Part shown: positions 25,444 to 34,092 of the stretch, one piece after another | How positions within the stretch are numbered: position 1 is the stretch's first letter | How the letters are laid out: every line of letters begins with the position of its first letter | Assembly: GCA_905235415.1 (NCBI GenBank) | Contig: CAJOKX010000032.1 | Location: forward strand, 1 to 37,412 | Source: an uncultured Lachnospiraceae bacterium | Lineage (GTDB): Bacteria > Bacillota > Clostridia > Lachnospirales > Lachnospiraceae | Length of the DNA stretch: 37,412 bases | Reading direction: 5' to 3' | The notes under the pieces: generated by a model | Database searches by the model: none | What the model was told of the DNA's origin: nothing | The model's input: the letters and a program-made list of their open reading frames with translations, nothing else | Program-made: the position numbers and the translations under genes

Positions 25444-28400
25444 TTATTCCGCTTCGGTCTGCACGTCTGCATTTTCTTCAGCTTCGGTCTCAACGCCCTC
25501 CGCCTCGGTCTGTGCATCTGCGCTTTCCGCCGCCTCATATACCTTCAGGCTGTCGCCGAAGTCATAGGAGCTCACCTTCGTCAGCGGCGCTGCCGTGTAC
25601 TTGTCGGTACGCGCATCGTCAATGACGCCGGACCAGTTCAGTCCGAATGCGAAGTCATAGGTGCTGCCGTCCGCATCCTGATAGCACTCCATGTCTCTCG
25701 GAACGTCGGATACCTGTGCTTCCACCGCATCCATGGAGGATGGCTGCTGGAATACAAGCAGTCCATTCGGCTCATATTCGCCGAGGATGATCTGCGCGAC
25801 CGCATCGGTCTTCTGCGCGTTGTAGGAAACCAGGATCACGTCGCAGAGCGGTTCCACATCGGTCCAGACCATGCCGCGTTCCATGGAAACGGACGCGATC
25901 ACCGGAACGTCTTTGGAGACGGACTCTGCATACTGCAGAGCCTCCAGATGGCCGTAGTTGGGATCTGCCGGAGCGGTGACGCCCTTGTAGGAGCGGTTTT
26001 CCTTCTCGCCGTCGACAATGTTGCCGGACAGGGACGGATCCGCTGCATTTTCTGCGGTGTACTCTGCATACTGCAGGGACGCCGGATAGTACACTTCCTC
26101 GCCCTCAGGCTCGGTGGGCGGTCCGAACGCCGCGGTCAGGTAAGAGGAATAGGAAGCGCTGTAGGCGCCGGTCATTCCGACCAGGATATAGTCGCAGTCC
26201 TGAATCTCCTCTTCACTTGCACGTGTCAGGTCGTCTTTGGTGTAGACGGGATTGCCGTCTGCATCCGGCTCTCCGGTCGGATCGCCGAGGGTATCGGTGA
26301 CAACCTCGAAGTACTGTCCGAGCGTGTCAAGATCCATTCCCGGCTGCCAGCTCGGCGTACCCGGATTGATGCCGAACATCCAGTTGGCAGTGAAGCCGGT
26401 GCTGTACACATACGGTACATAGACCTTCGGTTTTCCGCCCTGCGCCTCTTCGGCTTCTGTTTCTGCTCCCGTGGAGGCTTCCGCAGATGCGCTGCCTGCC
26501 GCCCGGATGGTTCCGTCGTTCTTGAGCATGACCACGGACTGTTTCTGGGTCTCCAGCCCGTACGCGTTCGCGGATTCGCTCGCGATGATCTGGTCTGCAT
26601 ACGCGGAATCGTTGTACGGCTGGTCGAACATATTCAGCCGCATCATCAGGACGATGTAGTTGCCCGCTGCTTTGGAGAGGATCTCATCCGCCTTCTCCTG
26701 TCCGACCTTTTCAACCAGGATGTTGTAGCCTTCGGTGATGTTCTCGAGGTTGCCGTATCCGCCCAGGACATTCACGCCGCGCTCAAATCCGAGTGCGATA
26801 CGCTCCGGCTCACTCATTTCCTCGGTGCCCCACAGGCCGCCGGTCTTTTCTCCGAGTCCGCCGAATACGCCCCAGTCGGTGATCTTCAGGCTGTCAAATC
26901 CATATTCGTCAAGAAGGCTGTACATGAACGGGTTGTATGCGCCTGCATATTCGCCGCCGTAGGTATTTCCGTCCTTGTCGACGTTGATGGCGTACTCTGT
27001 CATCAGTCCGGAGGATCCGGTCTTGCCGGGCAGGTTGAACACGCCGTCGAAATACGTGATCAGATGGGCTTCCAGGTTCTCACCCGGGAAGATTGCATAG
27101 CGTCCCGCGTAGGTGTGGTCGTCGCGTCCGCCCTCGGTGGAGCCTGCGCCGCCGTAATGCTTGGTGAAGCAGTAGACGGATTCATCTCCCCAGCCAAGGT
27201 CTTCGCCGTCCTCGCCGTAGGTGGACTGCATGGCGTTGACGTAGGCGGTGGCGATATCCAGCGTCAGCTGCGGATCCTCGCCGTAGGTTCCGCCCGCGCG
27301 GCTCATGATGGGAGACGCGATATCGACCTGCGGTCCGAGCAGGGCGGTGACGCCGGCTGCGCGGTACTGCTTCGCGGTCTCATTGCCGATCTCTGCCGCC
27401 AGCTCCGAATCCATGGTGGAAGCGAGCGACAGGCACTCGATCAGTCCGGAGATATTCGCCGGGTCGATGGAGATCATGGCCGGAATGCCGTAGTAGCTGC
27501 TCTCGGCTGCCTCCTGGATGGCGTTGGTCCACTTCGCGTGCGCTGCGCCGCCGTTGCTGATGGCGCGGCTGACGCCGCCGCGGCCGCCATTTGCCAGATA
27601 GATGGCAGAGGCGTGATCTTCCGGAAGACGCTCTGTTGTGAAGTCGCCGTCCCAGCCGCCGTGCGCGAGGATCACCGCCCTCTCTGCGCCCTGCATCTGC
27701 GAGACCAGGTCTTCGGCACGCTCTTCATCGGTCTTTCTCCAGTCTTCATAGACATCCAGAGATCCGTTCTGGTTCAGGTCCTTGAACGCATATCCGTCTT
27801 CTTCAATCACCTTGACGCCGGATACGCTGGACATGCCGAGCGTCTCTCCGTCTTCGTTCTCGATCTTTACCCAGCCGTCATCGGTCACTGTGACCGTATA
27901 TTTCGCGTCCGGTCCGGGTTCCGGAATATACTCTGCGGTTTCGGCTTTTACAGCCGCCTCTGTCTGCGCCTGCGCTTCTCCGCCGCCCGCACTCTTGTAC
28001 GGATCGGAGGTATCCCCGCCGCCTGCGCTCTTGTACGGATCGGAGCTCTCTCCGCCGCCCGCGCTCTTGTACGGGTCGGACGTATCTCCGCCGCCCGCGC
28101 TCTTGTACGGATCAGAGGTGTCCCCGCCCGCATTCTTGTACGGATCAGAGGTGTCCCCGCCCGCATTCTTGTACGGATCAGACGTATCCGCGGAAGCATC
28201 CTTATACGGATCGGACGTGTCGGAAGATGCATCCGACGATGCCGCCTGCGATGCGCCTCCGCCTGCTTTCGGCTCTTCCGTCAGGATCAGTTTGTATCTT
28301 GCGTCTGTTTCGGTTTCCGGCGCTCCATCCGCTGTCTGCGCGCCGTCCCCGCTCCCTGACTCCTTGCTTCCGCAGCCGGTCAGCATACCGGCGGCAAGCG

Positions 28401-28449
28401 CAATGACAAGAGCGGAAGATATTGCTTTCCTTGCATATTTGTTATGCAT
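25444..28449 (-). CDS. GH3-family glycoside hydrolase, lipoprotein
   Basis: Lipobox LAAGMLTGCGS; GH3 motifs (NGGRGGVSRA, KHYGGAGSTEGGRDDHTY, LKITDWGVFGG); repeat linker. Confidence 0.85.
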   Translation of the reverse strand: MHNKYARKAISSALVIALAAGMLTGCGSKESGSGDGAQTADGAPETETDARYKLILTEEPKAGGGASQAASSDASSDTSDPYKDASADTSDPYKNAGGDTSDPYKNAGGDTSDPYKSAGGGDTSDPYKSAGGGESSDPYKSAGGGDTSDPYKSAGGGEAQAQTEAAVKAETAEYIPEPGPDAKYTVTVTDDGWVKIENEDGETLGMSSVSGVKVIEEDGYAFKDLNQNGSLDVYEDWRKTDEERAEDLVSQMQGAERAVILAHGGWDGDFTTERLPEDHASAIYLANGGRGGVSRAISNGGAAHAKWTNAIQEAAESSYYGIPAMISIDPANISGLIECLSLASTMDSELAAEIGNETAKQYRAAGVTALLGPQVDIASPIMSRAGGTYGEDPQLTLDIATAYVNAMQSTYGEDGEDLGWGDESVYCFTKHYGGAGSTEGGRDDHTYAGRYAIFPGENLEAHLITYFDGVFNLPGKTGSSGLMTEYAINVDKDGNTYGGEYAGAYNPFMYSLLDEYGFDSLKITDWGVFGGLGEKTGGLWGTEEMSEPERIALGFERGVNVLGGYGNLENITEGYNILVEKVGQEKADEILSKAAGNYIVLMMRLNMFDQPYNDSAYADQIIASESANAYGLETQKQSVVMLKNDGTIRAAGSASAEASTGAETEAEEAQGGKPKVYVPYVYSTGFTANWMFGINPGTPSWQPGMDLDTLGQYFEVVTDTLGDPTGEPDADGNPVYTKDDLTRASEEEIQDCDYILVGMTGAYSASYSSYLTAAFGPPTEPEGEEVYYPASLQYAEYTAENAADPSLSGNIVDGEKENRSYKGVTAPADPNYGHLEALQYAESVSKDVPVIASVSMERGMVWTDVEPLCDVILVSYNAQKTDAVAQIILGEYEPNGLLVFQQPSSMDAVEAQVSDVPRDMECYQDADGSTYDFAFGLNWSGVIDDARTDKYTAAPLTKVSSYDFGDSLKVYEAAESADAQTEAEGVETEAEENADVQTEAE
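27976..28230 (-). repeat. Coding tandem repeat: (DTSDPYKSAGGG)n linker, 33/36-bp units
   Basis: DTSDPYKDASA/DTSDPYKNAGG x2/DTSDPYKSAGGG x2/ESSDPYKSAGGG/DTSDPYKSAGGG; seven copies. Confidence 0.95.
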
Positions 28450-28497: not shown

Positions 28498-29058
28498 TCA
28501 TTTCTTCTTCCCGAATCCTTCCGAGAAGATGGTCTTGTCGATCGCGAAGATGATGACCATGGATACGCCGCCCGTCACTACAGTAGTTACAATATTGCGG
28601 ATCCCGTCCGGAACGCTGAACGCTGCCGTAACCGGATTCCAGATGCAGGTAAACAGGTTCATGATGAAGAACACGCCCAGGGCGCCGGCAAAATGGCACA
28701 GGATCTGCGGGAGCACCGGTCCCTTGCTGCGGAACGTCACATTCCGCTGCAGCGGGAAGTTGATGCATTCGCCGATGATGATGGACGTGAAGTTCGCGAG
28801 CGTAAACGCGAGTCCTCCGTCCTCCAGACTGTTGCCGATGACTGCCAGCGTGAGCGGCACTCCGAACATCTTTACCTTGATCCCGGGCCACGCCCAGGCC
28901 ACATCCCCCACAATTCCGTGGAAGAACTGCGGAAGGAAGGTCAGAAGTCCCCATTTCAGGAAGGTGACTACATAACTGAAGACCAGGAAGAGCCCTCCCT
29001 CACGGACCCATTTGGCCGCGCCGGGATGTTTTTCAGTAAATTTCGTCCAGAATGACAT
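28498..29058 (-). CDS. GtrA-like membrane protein
   Basis: Four-TM protein with FPLQRNVTFRSKG (GtrA-type N-x-TF motif). Confidence 0.75.
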   Translation of the reverse strand: MSFWTKFTEKHPGAAKWVREGGLFLVFSYVVTFLKWGLLTFLPQFFHGIVGDVAWAWPGIKVKMFGVPLTLAVIGNSLEDGGLAFTLANFTSIIIGECINFPLQRNVTFRSKGPVLPQILCHFAGALGVFFIMNLFTCIWNPVTAAFSVPDGIRNIVTTVVTGGVSMVIIFAIDKTIFSEGFGKKK

Positions 29059-29119: not shown

Positions 29120-31552
29120 TTAAGTCTGTTCTTCCAGCCGCTTTTCATACGCCTTGTTGAGCTTCTTGTTTCTGAAGAAACCGCTGATCACAGCGCCCAG
29201 GCCGCTGAAGAAATGTCCGTTCACGATCTTTACGATCCCGTCCACCATATCCTTCGATACCGCGCCGCCGCTCATCTTGGCGATCGCTCTGAACGGCATG
29301 TTGTAAATGAACAGGATATTCAGATCCGGAATCCCTTTCGCATCCGCCTTCTTTTTCTTTTTGTCCAGAATCCTGAAGACAAACCTTGCAAGATGGCTGC
29401 GGGCGTTCTTCATCTGGCAGATCGCGTCATTTTCCGTAAGGACGCTGCCCCACCTGCCGTCCGGGATGTCGTGTCCCAGAAGCAGCCGGAATTCTTCGTC
29501 TCCGACCTGGAGGATCTTTCCGCTGTAGTAAGAGGGCATCTTCGCCGCGTCATACGGCACGGGCGCGCCGGTGCCTTCCACGTCGAAGGACTGCTGCAGA
29601 CGGATGTCGGAAACGCTCGCGCCGACCATAATGCTGTAGCTTCCGCCCTCGACCTCCCACTGATTCGTCTTCACATTGAAATAACGGAAGGTATACGCAT
29701 CAAACGGGATCATCACCTGCGTGCTCTGCCCTGCGTTCAGGAACACCTTCACAAATCCCTTCAGTTCCTTTTTCGGACGGAAGACCTTTGCGCCCGGAAG
29801 TCCCACGTAGAGCTGGACGACTTCCGCGCCGTCCACAGTGCCCGTGTTCTGAACGGTCAGGGTAACGCCCTTCTGGGAAACACGCAGATTGCTGTATGCA
29901 AATGTGGTGTAGGACAGTCCGAATCCGAACGGATATTTCACCGCCACGCCAGCCGTGTCGTAATAGCGGTATCCGATGAACGGTCCCTCGCGGTGTTCCG
30001 TGTTGCGCTCGGCTGCCGGATAATAGTGAATGACCGGATTCTCTTCGAAGACCACCGGATACGTCTCGGCAAGCTTTCCGGACGGATTGATCTTTCCGGT
30101 CAGCAGGTCCATGATGGCGCCCGCCCCGGCCTGTCCGGTCAGGTAGCCGTGCAGGATTCCCTGCAGATGTCCGTCCCACGGCATCTCAATGGGAGAGCCG
30201 GCGCTCAGGATGCCTACGATGTTCTCGTTGACAGCGCGCATGGCGGCCAGCACGTCCACCATGTTCTGCGGAATCCGCAGATGGCTGCGGTCCAGTCCTT
30301 CCGATTCACTCATTTCATTGAGTCCGAAGAAATACAGCACCACGTCGGCTGCGGCGGCAAGGCTCACGGCCTCCCGAAGGAGCGTCTCATCCGCGGATCC
30401 GTCCCGCATATAGCCTCTGGATATGCCCGCGACATCCAGGTCCTCCGCATATGCGGGAAGGATGTTTTCGATCGTATCCAGGAAGGTATTGTTGACAGCG
30501 GATGAACCGGCGCCCTGGTAGCGGGGCTGATATGCAAAATCACCGATCACCGCCACCCGGGTTCCTTTTTTCAGCGGCAGGATGCCGCCCGCGTTCTTCA
30601 GCAGGACGGCGCACTGTGCGGCAGCCCTGCGCGCGGCGGCGTGATGCGCCTCCTTGTCAAACTCTGCAGACCCTTTCTGCTTCGTCTTCGCGGTTTCCAG
30701 GACGGCGTCCAGCAGCGTATCCACGCGCGCGTTGATATCGTCCATGGACAGACGGCCGTCCTGCACGGCCTCGATCAGCTGCCTTGCCGAATCCAGGCCC
30801 GGCGCAGGCATCTCCAGCTCCGAACCTGCCTTCACGCCGGCTACGTGATCGTTGGATCCGCCCCAGTCGGTGACCACCATGCCGTCATATCCCCACTCGC
30901 CGCGGAGGATATCCTTCAGCAGATGCGCATTCTCATTGGTATAGGTCCCGTTGACCTCGTTGTAGCTGGTCATCAGCGCCTTCACGCCGCTCTCCCGGAC
31001 CGCGATCTCAAACTGGGTCAGGTAGATCTCCCTGAGCGTCCGCTCATCCACCACGGCGTTGACCGCCATGCGGCGCTCTTCCTGGGAGTTGACCGCAAAA
31101 TGCTTTGCGCAGGCCCGTACGCCCTGGGACTGGACGCCGCGGATGTATCCGGCCGCCATGCGCCCGGCCTGAATGGGATCCTCCGAATAGTACTCAAAAT
31201 TCCTTCCGCACAGAGGACTGCGCTTCATGTTCATCCCCGGTCCGAGCAGGATCTGTACGTCTTCCGTTCTCGCTTCCTCTCCGAGCATCCTGCCGATCTC
31301 TTCGGCAACCTGCGGATCCCAGCTGTTGGCAACGGTCGCGGCAGACGGCACACAGGTGGCCGGAAGAGACGGATTGATTCCCAGATGGTCGCCGGCGCCT
31401 GCCTGTCTGCGCACCCCGCTCGGTCCGTCGGACAGGTACATCTCCGGAATATGAAGTCTCTTCACGCCCCTGGTCTGCCACTCCCCTTTTCCGCCAAGGA
31501 GGGCCGCTTTCTCTTCCAGCGTCAGTTTGTCAATCAGTGCCTGATGCTTCAT
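29120..31552 (-). CDS. GH3-family beta-glycosidase (810 aa, cytoplasmic)
   Basis: MKHQALIDKLTLEEKAALLGGKGEWQT, DGPSGVR, GMNMKRSPLCGRNFEYYSEDP, KHFAVNSQE, GMVVTDWGG; GGAGG SD before ATG at 31552. Confidence 0.93.
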   Translation of the reverse strand: MKHQALIDKLTLEEKAALLGGKGEWQTRGVKRLHIPEMYLSDGPSGVRRQAGAGDHLGINPSLPATCVPSAATVANSWDPQVAEEIGRMLGEEARTEDVQILLGPGMNMKRSPLCGRNFEYYSEDPIQAGRMAAGYIRGVQSQGVRACAKHFAVNSQEERRMAVNAVVDERTLREIYLTQFEIAVRESGVKALMTSYNEVNGTYTNENAHLLKDILRGEWGYDGMVVTDWGGSNDHVAGVKAGSELEMPAPGLDSARQLIEAVQDGRLSMDDINARVDTLLDAVLETAKTKQKGSAEFDKEAHHAAARRAAAQCAVLLKNAGGILPLKKGTRVAVIGDFAYQPRYQGAGSSAVNNTFLDTIENILPAYAEDLDVAGISRGYMRDGSADETLLREAVSLAAAADVVLYFFGLNEMSESEGLDRSHLRIPQNMVDVLAAMRAVNENIVGILSAGSPIEMPWDGHLQGILHGYLTGQAGAGAIMDLLTGKINPSGKLAETYPVVFEENPVIHYYPAAERNTEHREGPFIGYRYYDTAGVAVKYPFGFGLSYTTFAYSNLRVSQKGVTLTVQNTGTVDGAEVVQLYVGLPGAKVFRPKKELKGFVKVFLNAGQSTQVMIPFDAYTFRYFNVKTNQWEVEGGSYSIMVGASVSDIRLQQSFDVEGTGAPVPYDAAKMPSYYSGKILQVGDEEFRLLLGHDIPDGRWGSVLTENDAICQMKNARSHLARFVFRILDKKKKKADAKGIPDLNILFIYNMPFRAIAKMSGGAVSKDMVDGIVKIVNGHFFSGLGAVISGFFRNKKLNKAYEKRLEEQT

Positions 31553-31640
31553 GAATCCTCCTTTCTGAACAGTCCGCGCATGCACTGCGGCAGCTGCATG
31601 CACAAAAACGTCGGGTATTCTGTTTTCCTTATACAAAAAA

Positions 31641-31660
31641 AGGACGCCTCCCGGCGTCCT
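31641..31660 (-). terminator. Terminator of the two-component system transcript
   Basis: Minus strand AGGACGCC-GGGA-GGCGTCCT followed by TTTTTTT. Confidence 0.88.
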
Positions 31661-31665
31661 CTGGC

Positions 31666-31695
31666 ACAAACTGTATCTAAAACGGCACAAACTGC
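31666..31695 (-). promoter_or_regulatory. Candidate LytTR-family operator: two 9-bp direct repeats separated by 12 bp
   Basis: Minus strand GCAGTTTGT (31695-31687) and ACAGTTTGT (31674-31666), period 21 bp; compared with the published LytTR consensus [TA][AC][CA]GTTN[AG][TG]. Confidence 0.65.
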
Positions 31696-31703
31696 ATCCT
31701 GCT

Positions 31704-33026
31704 TCACGCAGAGAGCGGGATGAGAACGGAAACGGCAAAGAATCCGTCCGCATAGGAAAAAGTGGCGTCTCCGCCGTATTTGCGGGCCGTCTGCCGGATG
31801 CTCTTTGTCCCGAAACCGTGATACCTGCTGTCTTTGCGCGAACAGGGCATGTCCTCTTTAAAAAGCGGGGCCTCATCACAGGTGTTCCGCATCTGCATCA
31901 TCATGAAGTCTCTCTTTCTTGCAACCGTCAGATGGATCAGGCGCCGCGAGGGATCTTCCACCTGCGCGGCCGCCTCGATGGCGTTGTCGAGCGCATTGCC
32001 GAACAGAGTACAGGTATCCCGCACGGAAAGCGCCCCCAGCAGCTGTCCGTCGCACACGCAGGTAAAGGTGATCCTGTTGTGATGCATCCTTCCCTCTTTC
32101 CCGGCCAGGATGGTGTTCAGGACCGGGCTGCCTGTATCGGCGGCCGGCTTATACTCCTGCAGCTCCTCCTCCATGGCGCTGATCCAGGCCTCCCGCGTCT
32201 CGGGATCCGTCTCGCCTCTCAGGCCGGCAATCTCGTGCTTCAGGTCATGGTACTTGCGGTTGATCAGGTCAATGGATTCCTGATAGTTGCGGTACTGGCT
32301 GTACTGCAGTTTCAGGACATGGTCCATTTCCATCATCTCCTCCCGGACTGCCTGCTCATGCAGATGATCCAGATAGAAGAACAGGACGAGCACTCCGCAC
32401 AGATCGATAATCGTCCGCACGTAATGAAGGCCCCGGATTCCCTCCACCGCAAGCGGCCCTTCGGAAACCAGGAAGCTGACGTTGCTCAGCGAAAAGGATA
32501 AAAGGACCAGCCCTCCGCAGAATGCGGCATCCCTTTTCCGGATCACGGGATAGCTTCTCCCCCGGATCTCGTGGGCGCTTGCAAAGAACAGCACAGAAAA
32601 CAGGAGCGCATAGATCATCACGACCAGGACGGCCTGCAGCGGCAGCGCAAGGGCGTAGAACACGTCTCCGTACCCGAAGAACTGCCAGGTAAAGGACGCC
32701 GCAAACTCCGCCGCCTGAAAGGCAAAAAAAGCCAGGACCAGGCAGCTGGTCCATGAGTCATCCACGCACGCATAGATAAACGCGAACATAAACAGGAATG
32801 CGGCCAGCATGAACACGCCCCACCAGATCATCCGCGCACGCCCCGTCAGGACCAGGAACCCCGACTGCACAAAAAGCGCGCCCGCGCACGCCGCTGCAAA
32901 GCGCCAGCCCTTCGCCCACGCGCGCCGTTTGAGCAGATGGATAAAGACCATACACGCCGCCCATTCCGCCAGCGCCGTGAAGATCCTGGGAATATCAAGT
33001 TCGACCGTTTGAAACAATATCGGCAT
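31704..33026 (-). CDS. GHKL-domain sensor histidine kinase (AgrC/CitA-like)
   Basis: Six-TM N-terminus; KYHDLKHEIAGLRG (H-box), LFGNALDNAIEAA (N-box), HGFGTKSIRQTARKYGG (G-box). Confidence 0.9.
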   Translation of the reverse strand: MPILFQTVELDIPRIFTALAEWAACMVFIHLLKRRAWAKGWRFAAACAGALFVQSGFLVLTGRARMIWWGVFMLAAFLFMFAFIYACVDDSWTSCLVLAFFAFQAAEFAASFTWQFFGYGDVFYALALPLQAVLVVMIYALLFSVLFFASAHEIRGRSYPVIRKRDAAFCGGLVLLSFSLSNVSFLVSEGPLAVEGIRGLHYVRTIIDLCGVLVLFFYLDHLHEQAVREEMMEMDHVLKLQYSQYRNYQESIDLINRKYHDLKHEIAGLRGETDPETREAWISAMEEELQEYKPAADTGSPVLNTILAGKEGRMHHNRITFTCVCDGQLLGALSVRDTCTLFGNALDNAIEAAAQVEDPSRRLIHLTVARKRDFMMMQMRNTCDEAPLFKEDMPCSRKDSRYHGFGTKSIRQTARKYGGDATFSYADGFFAVSVLIPLSA

Positions 33027-33043: not shown

Positions 33044-33742
33044 CTACTCCACCGTGCTGATCAGCAGGCGCATCAGTTCATTTTTCCGGGTCCGGCCGAC
33101 AGGCAGACGCTGCCCGTCCACGATACAGTCATTGCCCTGCACAGAGGTGACATGCATCAGGTTGACCAGATATCCCTTGTGAATCCTGCAGAACTGCTCC
33201 CCGCCCAGCAGCTTCTCCGCCTCGCTCATATTCTGGCGGACCATATGCTCGTTCTTCTTCGTATGGTAGATCAGGTTGTGCCCGATGCTCTCCACATAGG
33301 TGATGCGGTCCGTCTCCAGCACCAGGAATCCGGAAGCAGACTGCAGCGTAATCTTCTTCCCCCGCGAAGCGCTCAGGCGTTCGGCGGCGCGCAGCAGCGA
33401 CTCTTTCAGCGCATAGTAATTCAGGGGCTTCAGGATATAGTCCAGCGCGTCCACCTGATAGCCCTGCACGGCGTAATCCACCCGGTTCGTGATAAAGATG
33501 ATGACCACCGCACCATCCCGCTCCCGGATCCGGCGCGCCGCCGTCATACCGTCCATAAACCGCATCTGGATATCCATCAGGATAATATCCATGCCGCCGG
33601 CGTATTCCTGCGCGATCTCATCTCCGTCCGAAAAATGGGCAACCTTCAGCTGGCTGCCGGTTTCTTCCGAAAACCTGCACAGGAACGCATCCAGTTCTTT
33701 TTTATATTTTTCTTCGTCTTCAACAACCGCAATCGTCAGCAT
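33044..33742 (-). CDS. LytTR-family response regulator
   Basis: Receiver (VVEDEEKYKKEL, DIILMDIQMRFMDG, KPLNYYALKESL) plus LytTR domain (IHKGYLVNLMHVTSV). Confidence 0.93.
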   Translation of the reverse strand: MLTIAVVEDEEKYKKELDAFLCRFSEETGSQLKVAHFSDGDEIAQEYAGGMDIILMDIQMRFMDGMTAARRIRERDGAVVIIFITNRVDYAVQGYQVDALDYILKPLNYYALKESLLRAAERLSASRGKKITLQSASGFLVLETDRITYVESIGHNLIYHTKKNEHMVRQNMSEAEKLLGGEQFCRIHKGYLVNLMHVTSVQGNDCIVDGQRLPVGRTRKNELMRLLISTVE

Positions 33743-33926
33743 AGCCCATTTTCTGCAAATCTCCAGACTGTAAATGAACCTGTATATCTGTTATATAGTA
33801 TACACCAGATCATTTCTGTTAATCAGTACTTCATTATTATAATATGAAAACGGGAGAATGCTTATTGAAAAATAAGATTTCCGCATCCATATACCGCGGA
33901 TATGGCTAAATGCATCAAAGAAGTAT

Positions 33927-34032: not shown

Positions 34033-34092
34033 ATGAAAAAGATCAGCGTATTCTTCCACTGTCTGTATGGGTCCTATGCACATTCGGTATGA
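34033..34092 (+). CDS. Putative 19-aa micropeptide MKKISVFFHCLYGSYAHSV
   Basis: AAAAGGAGG Shine-Dalgarno ~8 nt before ATG; stop codon lies inside a downstream hairpin; terminator follows. Confidence 0.5.
   Translation: MKKISVFFHCLYGSYAHSV

Follow-up and report, generated by a model that had tools for sequence, protein, structure and literature searches.

Two direct repeats between a kinase gene and a GH3 glycosidase gene in the window (the whole 37,412-bp stretch of DNA analysed here) are very probably the operator of the adjoining LytTR-type response regulator (RR), which would act there to switch on a promoter without a -35 element ahead of a GH3-GtrA-GH3 operon. As judged by comparison with related loci, the window is one instance of a module, combining a LytTR switch with GH3 genes, that is found across Lachnospiraceae.

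All genes at the locus are read on the minus strand. The RR (33044..33742, 232 aa) includes receiver and LytTR domains (Pfam Response_reg, 9e-17; LytTR, 2e-16), and is one of two LytTR proteins in the genome, the second being encoded on contig C67. As in a two-component system, it adjoins a membrane sensor histidine kinase with a GHKL ATPase domain (31704..33026, 440 aa; Pfam HATPase_c_5, 5e-25), and a kinase is paired with the RR in 33 of the 35 loci that carry the repeats. A candidate sigma-70-type promoter for the RR and kinase genes (TTAACA-16-TACTAT, 33795..33822, minus strand) is a weak prediction, with one found against 1.7 in shuffled sequence. Along the minus strand, the kinase stop codon (31704) is followed by the distal half-site, 9 bases, the proximal half-site, a terminator, the sequence TATAAG, a ribosome-binding site (RBS; AAAGGAGG, 31557..31564) and the start of the GH3 gene at 31552. 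This first gene of the operon (29120..31552) encodes a GH3 glycosidase of 810 aa (Pfam GH3 N, GH3 C and Fn3-like) in which a signal peptide was not evident, and which extends ~140 aa past the Fn3-like domain at the C-terminus (residues about 665-810), a long form that separates from canonical short GH3s. The second gene (28498..29058) encodes a GtrA-like membrane protein of 186 aa (Pfam GtrA_DPMS_TM), a family present in 19 of the 35 loci. The third (25444..28449) encodes another GH3, a predicted lipoprotein of 1001 aa (Pfam GH3 N), the gene order being alike in the closest orthologous locus, L059. Following its signal peptide, the N-terminal part of the lipoprotein contains (S/T)SDPYKSAGGGD-type repeats in tandem.

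The DNA repeats are two copies of a 15-mer, GGCACAAACTGTATC at 31663-31677 and GGCACAAACTGCATC at 31684-31698, located exactly 21 bp apart, as an earlier note on this sequence had described. On the minus strand they include the 9-mers GCAGTTTGT (31687-31695) and ACAGTTTGT (31666-31674), separated by the 12-bp spacer given in that note. LytTR operators consist of direct repeats with the consensus [TA][AC][CA]GTTN[AG][TG]; the fit reported for them was reproduced, ACAGTTTGT matching at 9 of 9 positions and GCAGTTTGT at 8 of 9. The spacer of 12 bp lies within the 11-13 bp that set LytTR repeats two helical turns apart. The 9-12-9 description therefore stands as regards the direct repeats and the spacer, but not the length of the half-site, which is 12 bp rather than 9 in relatives. 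The part kept is the 12-mer [GA]CAGTTTGTGCC (31684-31695 and 31663-31674), and by the same comparison the final ATC of the 15-mer falls outside the conserved half-site. The LytTR box thus reads GCAGTTTGTGCC-N9-ACAGTTTGTGCC on the minus strand (31663-31695), with the distal half-site GCAGTTTGTGCC at 31684..31695 and the proximal half-site ACAGTTTGTGCC at 31663..31674 in a 21-bp register, both assigned from the sequence and a half-site matrix.

The whole 2.54-Mb genome was searched for CAGTTTGT-N13-CAGTTTGT, and a single match was found at 0 mismatches and none at 1, while matches with 2-3 mismatches were at the control level (41 vs 39 with the reversed pattern). A longer degenerate pattern matched with fewer than 3 mismatches at the box only, and the genome-wide motif search therefore identified the box as unique. 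An RNA family search of the window returned no match.

The closest orthologous locus, L059, belongs to a Reindeer MAG of Lachnospiraceae and shares all five genes (74-94% identity), the RR being 77% and the GH3 85% identical. Its half-sites, GCAATTCGTGAC and GCAGTTTATGCC, are kept 21 bp apart, and a hairpin (AGAGGACGCC....GGCGTCCTTTTTTT) and GTATAAG are kept at the distances seen in the window. The stretch between the -10 element and the RBS differs from that of the window in both length and sequence. Hence, as the half-sites, the hairpin and GTATAAG are kept and the stretch downstream has diverged, the conserved block ends at the proposed -10 element. In the intergenic comparison the box was carried by L059 and by about 30 distant loci, so that the repeats are conserved among orthologous loci, on which the earlier note had made its reading depend.

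RR homologues of 40-54% identity were taken from species genomes, and many of these were followed by a kinase gene and then a GH3 gene, with the same motif in the intergenic region. A half-site matrix with the consensus [AG]CA[GT]TT[TC][AG]TG[CA][CA] was trained on 12 distant loci, with the window and L059 left out, and used to scan both strands of 65 non-redundant loci (RRs <90% identical; 737 kb), the training loci included. Of the pairs scoring >21 bits, 19 had a lag of 20 and 13 a lag of 21, whereas the twenty remaining lags in the range 12-33 together gave 3. The window, which is outside the training set, had the top score of 36.5. In held-out regions adjoining GH3 genes, the lag was 20 or 21 in 13 of 14 pairs >12 bits, and a matrix-free best 12-mer self-match peaked at lag 20 in 12 of 30 held-out regions (3.1 expected); both counts are lower bounds, since the initial definition of the GH3-upstream region took the wrong start in some loci, including the window. 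These register tests make an 11-bp spacer between the 9-mers (the 20-bp register) the family norm and the 12-bp spacer (the 21-bp register) a second class, and the two spacings agree with those published for LytTR sites (PMC6193735, PMC2766830). The 12-bp spacing proposed previously thus applies to the window, but most relatives have 11 bp. Position 10 of the half-site is G in 37 of 38 sites.

A matrix of 34 fixed positions, aligned on the second repeat, was dropped in favour of the half-site matrix because it was blurred by the mixed 20-bp and 21-bp registers. A strict pattern in the 20-bp register, applied family-wide, found 10 sites in 397 genomes versus 4 for the control, with several matches elsewhere, and this weak result is attributable to the strictness of the pattern. 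In eight loci (L067, L076, L081, L086, L103, L106, L110 and L112) the word GGCAC/GCGCAC occurs ~6-11 nt after the box, where a -35 element would be, and repeats the end of the half-site in inverted orientation. This word, which is absent from the window, may provide a third contact or belong to a hairpin.

The distance from the box to the promoter just downstream is constrained. The putative -10 element of the window, TATAAG (31628..31633, minus strand), starts 29 nt downstream of the box and is kept in L059. Among the 38 sites, the best -10 element within 50 nt starts 28-30 nt past the box in 36. The same spacing holds for 24 of the 25 held-out sites, and its chance in shuffled sequence is 7.6% per site. 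A TGn-extended -10 is present in 30 of the 38; that of the window lacks this extension, which is common to most relatives, and has G as its final base. No -35 element was recognisable in the window or apparent among the 38 sites. The earlier placement of TATAAG 33 bp downstream is correct for its start as counted from the end of the proximal 9-mer, with 32 bp in between. Published promoters controlled by LytTR proteins have the same geometry, their 9-bp repeats being separated by 11-13 bp and lying about 10 bp ahead of the -35 element, often with an extended -10 (PMC6193735). For typical cases among these promoters, our own sum of gap, -35, spacer and -10 gives 32-33 nt from the core repeat to the -10, and the corresponding distance in the window is 32 nt. 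Transcription of the operon would start near 31621.

The same RR could also act at this site as a repressor, or both ways, with binding near the -10 blocking the polymerase or read-through from the kinase gene until the signal relieves the block. The window box is <100 bp from the kinase stop codon and touches the terminator, so that a bound protein could be a roadblock, and derepression at bsaA is one role of AgrA (PMC4227749). However, the box precedes the -10 by a constant 28-30 nt and a -35 consensus is missing, which is the geometry of LytTR-activated promoters (PMC6193735, PMC2838878), and repression is considered unlikely.

The dependence of the box on two-component genes was assessed in 40 further loci picked by GH3 homology alone, of which 11 had two-component genes nearby and 29 did not. 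A box of >15 bits was present in 6 of the 11 and in 0 of the 29 (Fisher P 1.2e-4), though the L187 box may sit within a kinase gene, and L197 is a locus overlapping one already examined; recounted at 5 of 11, P is about 7e-4. Canonical short GH3 genes, including a copy on contig C61 of the same genome, had no box. The GH3s with a C-terminal extension are those that accompany two-component genes, and the canonical short GH3s are not.

The position of the box was also informative. In L083, a box of its own precedes the GH3 gene, which is upstream of the RR gene; two boxes, ahead of two target genes, are present in each of L065 and L105; and in L109 and L098 the box lies ahead of a GtrA gene. Boxes ahead of GH3 or GtrA genes away from the kinase gene were found in L083, L065, L105, L103 and L109, and across the loci compared the box tracks the enzyme genes (GH3/GtrA) and not the end of the kinase gene. 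The identity of boxes was correlated with that of LytTR domains (r 0.28, P 0.0005) more than with that of receiver domains (r 0.12, P 0.06), as expected if the LytTR domain reads the box, though gene adjacency weakens this argument, as co-inherited neighbouring DNA inflates some of the correlations.

A different regulator, such as an AraC or LacI protein or a LytTR protein encoded elsewhere, might bind the repeats, with the RR gene close by through a chance of gene order. AraC and LacI proteins often control glycoside hydrolase genes in these bacteria (PMC5320581), and the genome does encode the second LytTR protein on contig C67. Such an explanation is very improbable, because the box is present at GH3 loci with two-component genes and absent from those without, its sequence follows that of the LytTR domain, and both the register and the distance to the promoter are LytTR-like. 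The adjoining RR remains the preferred regulator. No recognisable box was found in six loci with LytTR and GH3 genes (L130-L132, L135, L190 and L192), so that either there are exceptions to the rule or these loci have diverged boxes.

Two further sets of loci were noted. In L060 and L061, which encode the RRs nearest to that of the window after L059 (51-54%), a gene other than GH3 overlaps the kinase end and there is no box; the module is re-used there for another output. Similar direct-repeat pairs are located before an AgrB-like ORF in L152 and just after a GHKL-like kinase gene in L146, and this type of box may serve Agr-like systems too.

The predicted intrinsic terminator of the RR-kinase transcript (31635..31662, minus strand) consists of the stem-loop AGAGGACGCCGGGAGGCGTCCTTT at 31639-31662 and a T tract to 31635. 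The earlier note had placed the kinase terminator within the promoter region, and this holds for the window, where the hairpin fills the gap from the box to the -10, and for L059, where it is kept in the same position. It does not hold family-wide: in L106 the hairpin between box and -10 is an unrelated one, in L072, L103 and L109 the hairpin overlaps the box, and at nine sites the terminator is upstream of the box. On these comparisons, the nested terminator is real and recurrent, yet it is a local arrangement and not a rule of the family. Its simplest role would be to stop the kinase transcript from supplying GH3. Alternatively, the terminator could be a switch, in which the box-bound RR pauses or blocks the polymerase on the kinase transcript while GH3 transcription starts a few bases on, so that termination and activation are coupled. 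If so, the recurrent and apparently independent placements (window and L059; L106; L072, L103 and L109) would have been selected and not accidental. This coupling has a small chance of being correct and is graded as less likely than simple separation of the transcripts.

A box just past the stop codon of the kinase gene, as in the window and many relatives, and a half-site within the terminator stem, as in L072, L103 and L109, could be explained if the repeats were an RNA element of the kinase 3'-end (e.g. an anti-terminator or a processing site) or a chance feature. Against this, the same spacing to the -10 is found at boxes before GH3 or GtrA genes with no kinase gene ahead of them (L083, L065 and L105), and the repeats of the window, when folded, add little beyond the terminator hairpin. 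Hence, this possibility is given almost no weight, and the box is read as a DNA operator.

Evidence for autoregulation was also sought, and the RR gene was not preceded by a box in any of the 65 loci or in the window, where the best box-like score upstream of the RR was 7.4. No conserved small ORF that might encode a signal peptide was present beside the RR among the neighbours of 35 loci (ORFs of at least 30 aa compared), and no AgrB-like family, as expected of an Agr-type system, was found among them. In the window, a tiny ORF (MKKISVFFHCLYGSYAHSV, 34033-34092, plus strand) is divergent from the RR gene, with a strong RBS (AAAAGGAGGTTTACCT) and a hairpin after the ORF. It could encode a signal peptide; no counterpart lies beside the RR in L059.

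The arrangement was compared with characterised LytTR systems. Like the window, the HdrR/BrsR LytTR Regulatory System and bacteriocin promoters (PMC6193735) have promoter-proximal 9-bp core repeats with a 12-bp spacer (11 or 13 in some). However, the HdrR/BrsR systems include a membrane inhibitor and are autoregulated, whereas the RR of the window has a receiver domain and a GHKL kinase partner and no box before its own gene, which sets it apart from LytTR Regulatory Systems. VirSR of Clostridium perfringens (PMC2838878) similarly pairs a LytTR RR with a sensor kinase and has its operator before the target promoter, and VirR boxes, like that of the window, consist of two imperfect direct repeats of ~12 bp on the same face of the helix, the VirR repeats lying 7-8 nt from each other. 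VirR boxes are located upstream of a -35 element, which is not recognisable next to the window box, and VirR controls a regulon (PMC2838878), whereas the genome of the window has one site with glycosidase targets. In SilA DR1/DR2 of the streptococcal sil locus (PMC2766830, where the 9-12-9 repeat rule for LytTR operators is cited), the repeat exceeds 9 bp, its position 10 is an invariant G and the spacer is 11 bp, as in most relatives of the window; sil is a peptide-pheromone system, and no signal peptide gene was recognised at the window locus. Ros-7, a Gram-positive polysaccharide utilisation locus of Roseburia intestinalis (PMC5320581), shares with the window a LytTR RR and kinase beside glycoside hydrolases in a member of the Lachnospiraceae, but its hydrolases are GH25, GH43 and GH51 rather than GH3, and the text consulted on it gives no operator or promoter. 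A literature search, mainly of open-access papers, found no publication linking LytTR with GH3 in Lachnospiraceae, and the LytTR control circuit of the GH3 operon is apparently undescribed so far.

The proposal of the earlier note that the LytTR RR at 33044-33742 controls the GH3 gene via the repeats is supported by the comparative tests, namely by conservation of the box, the 20/21-bp register, the distance to the -10, the tracking of GH3/GtrA genes, the absence of the box without a two-component pair and its uniqueness in the genome. In the proposed mechanism, the GHKL membrane kinase would sense a signal and the RR would be phosphorylated. A pair of RR molecules would then bind the two 12-bp half-sites, which are separated by two helical turns and lie on the same face of the DNA, and would recruit or position RNA polymerase at the -35-less TATAAG promoter 29 nt downstream, switching on the GH3-GtrA-GH3 operon. 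The RR-kinase transcript would stop at the terminator between the box and the -10, and as this would leave no read-through supply of GH3, its expression would be expected to rely on the activated promoter.

LytTR regulators are known mainly for controlling virulence, bacteriocins and competence. In many genera of Lachnospiraceae, the LytTR RR appears, from the sequence comparisons made here, to be a dedicated local switch of a GH3/GtrA operon, and the module is within reach of cultured strains (Blautia, Hominisplanchenecus). With the site matrix and the promoter rule, it should be possible to match GH3 operons to LytTR kinases in Firmicutes of the gut and rumen, and the signal of the kinase becomes testable by a simple reporter.
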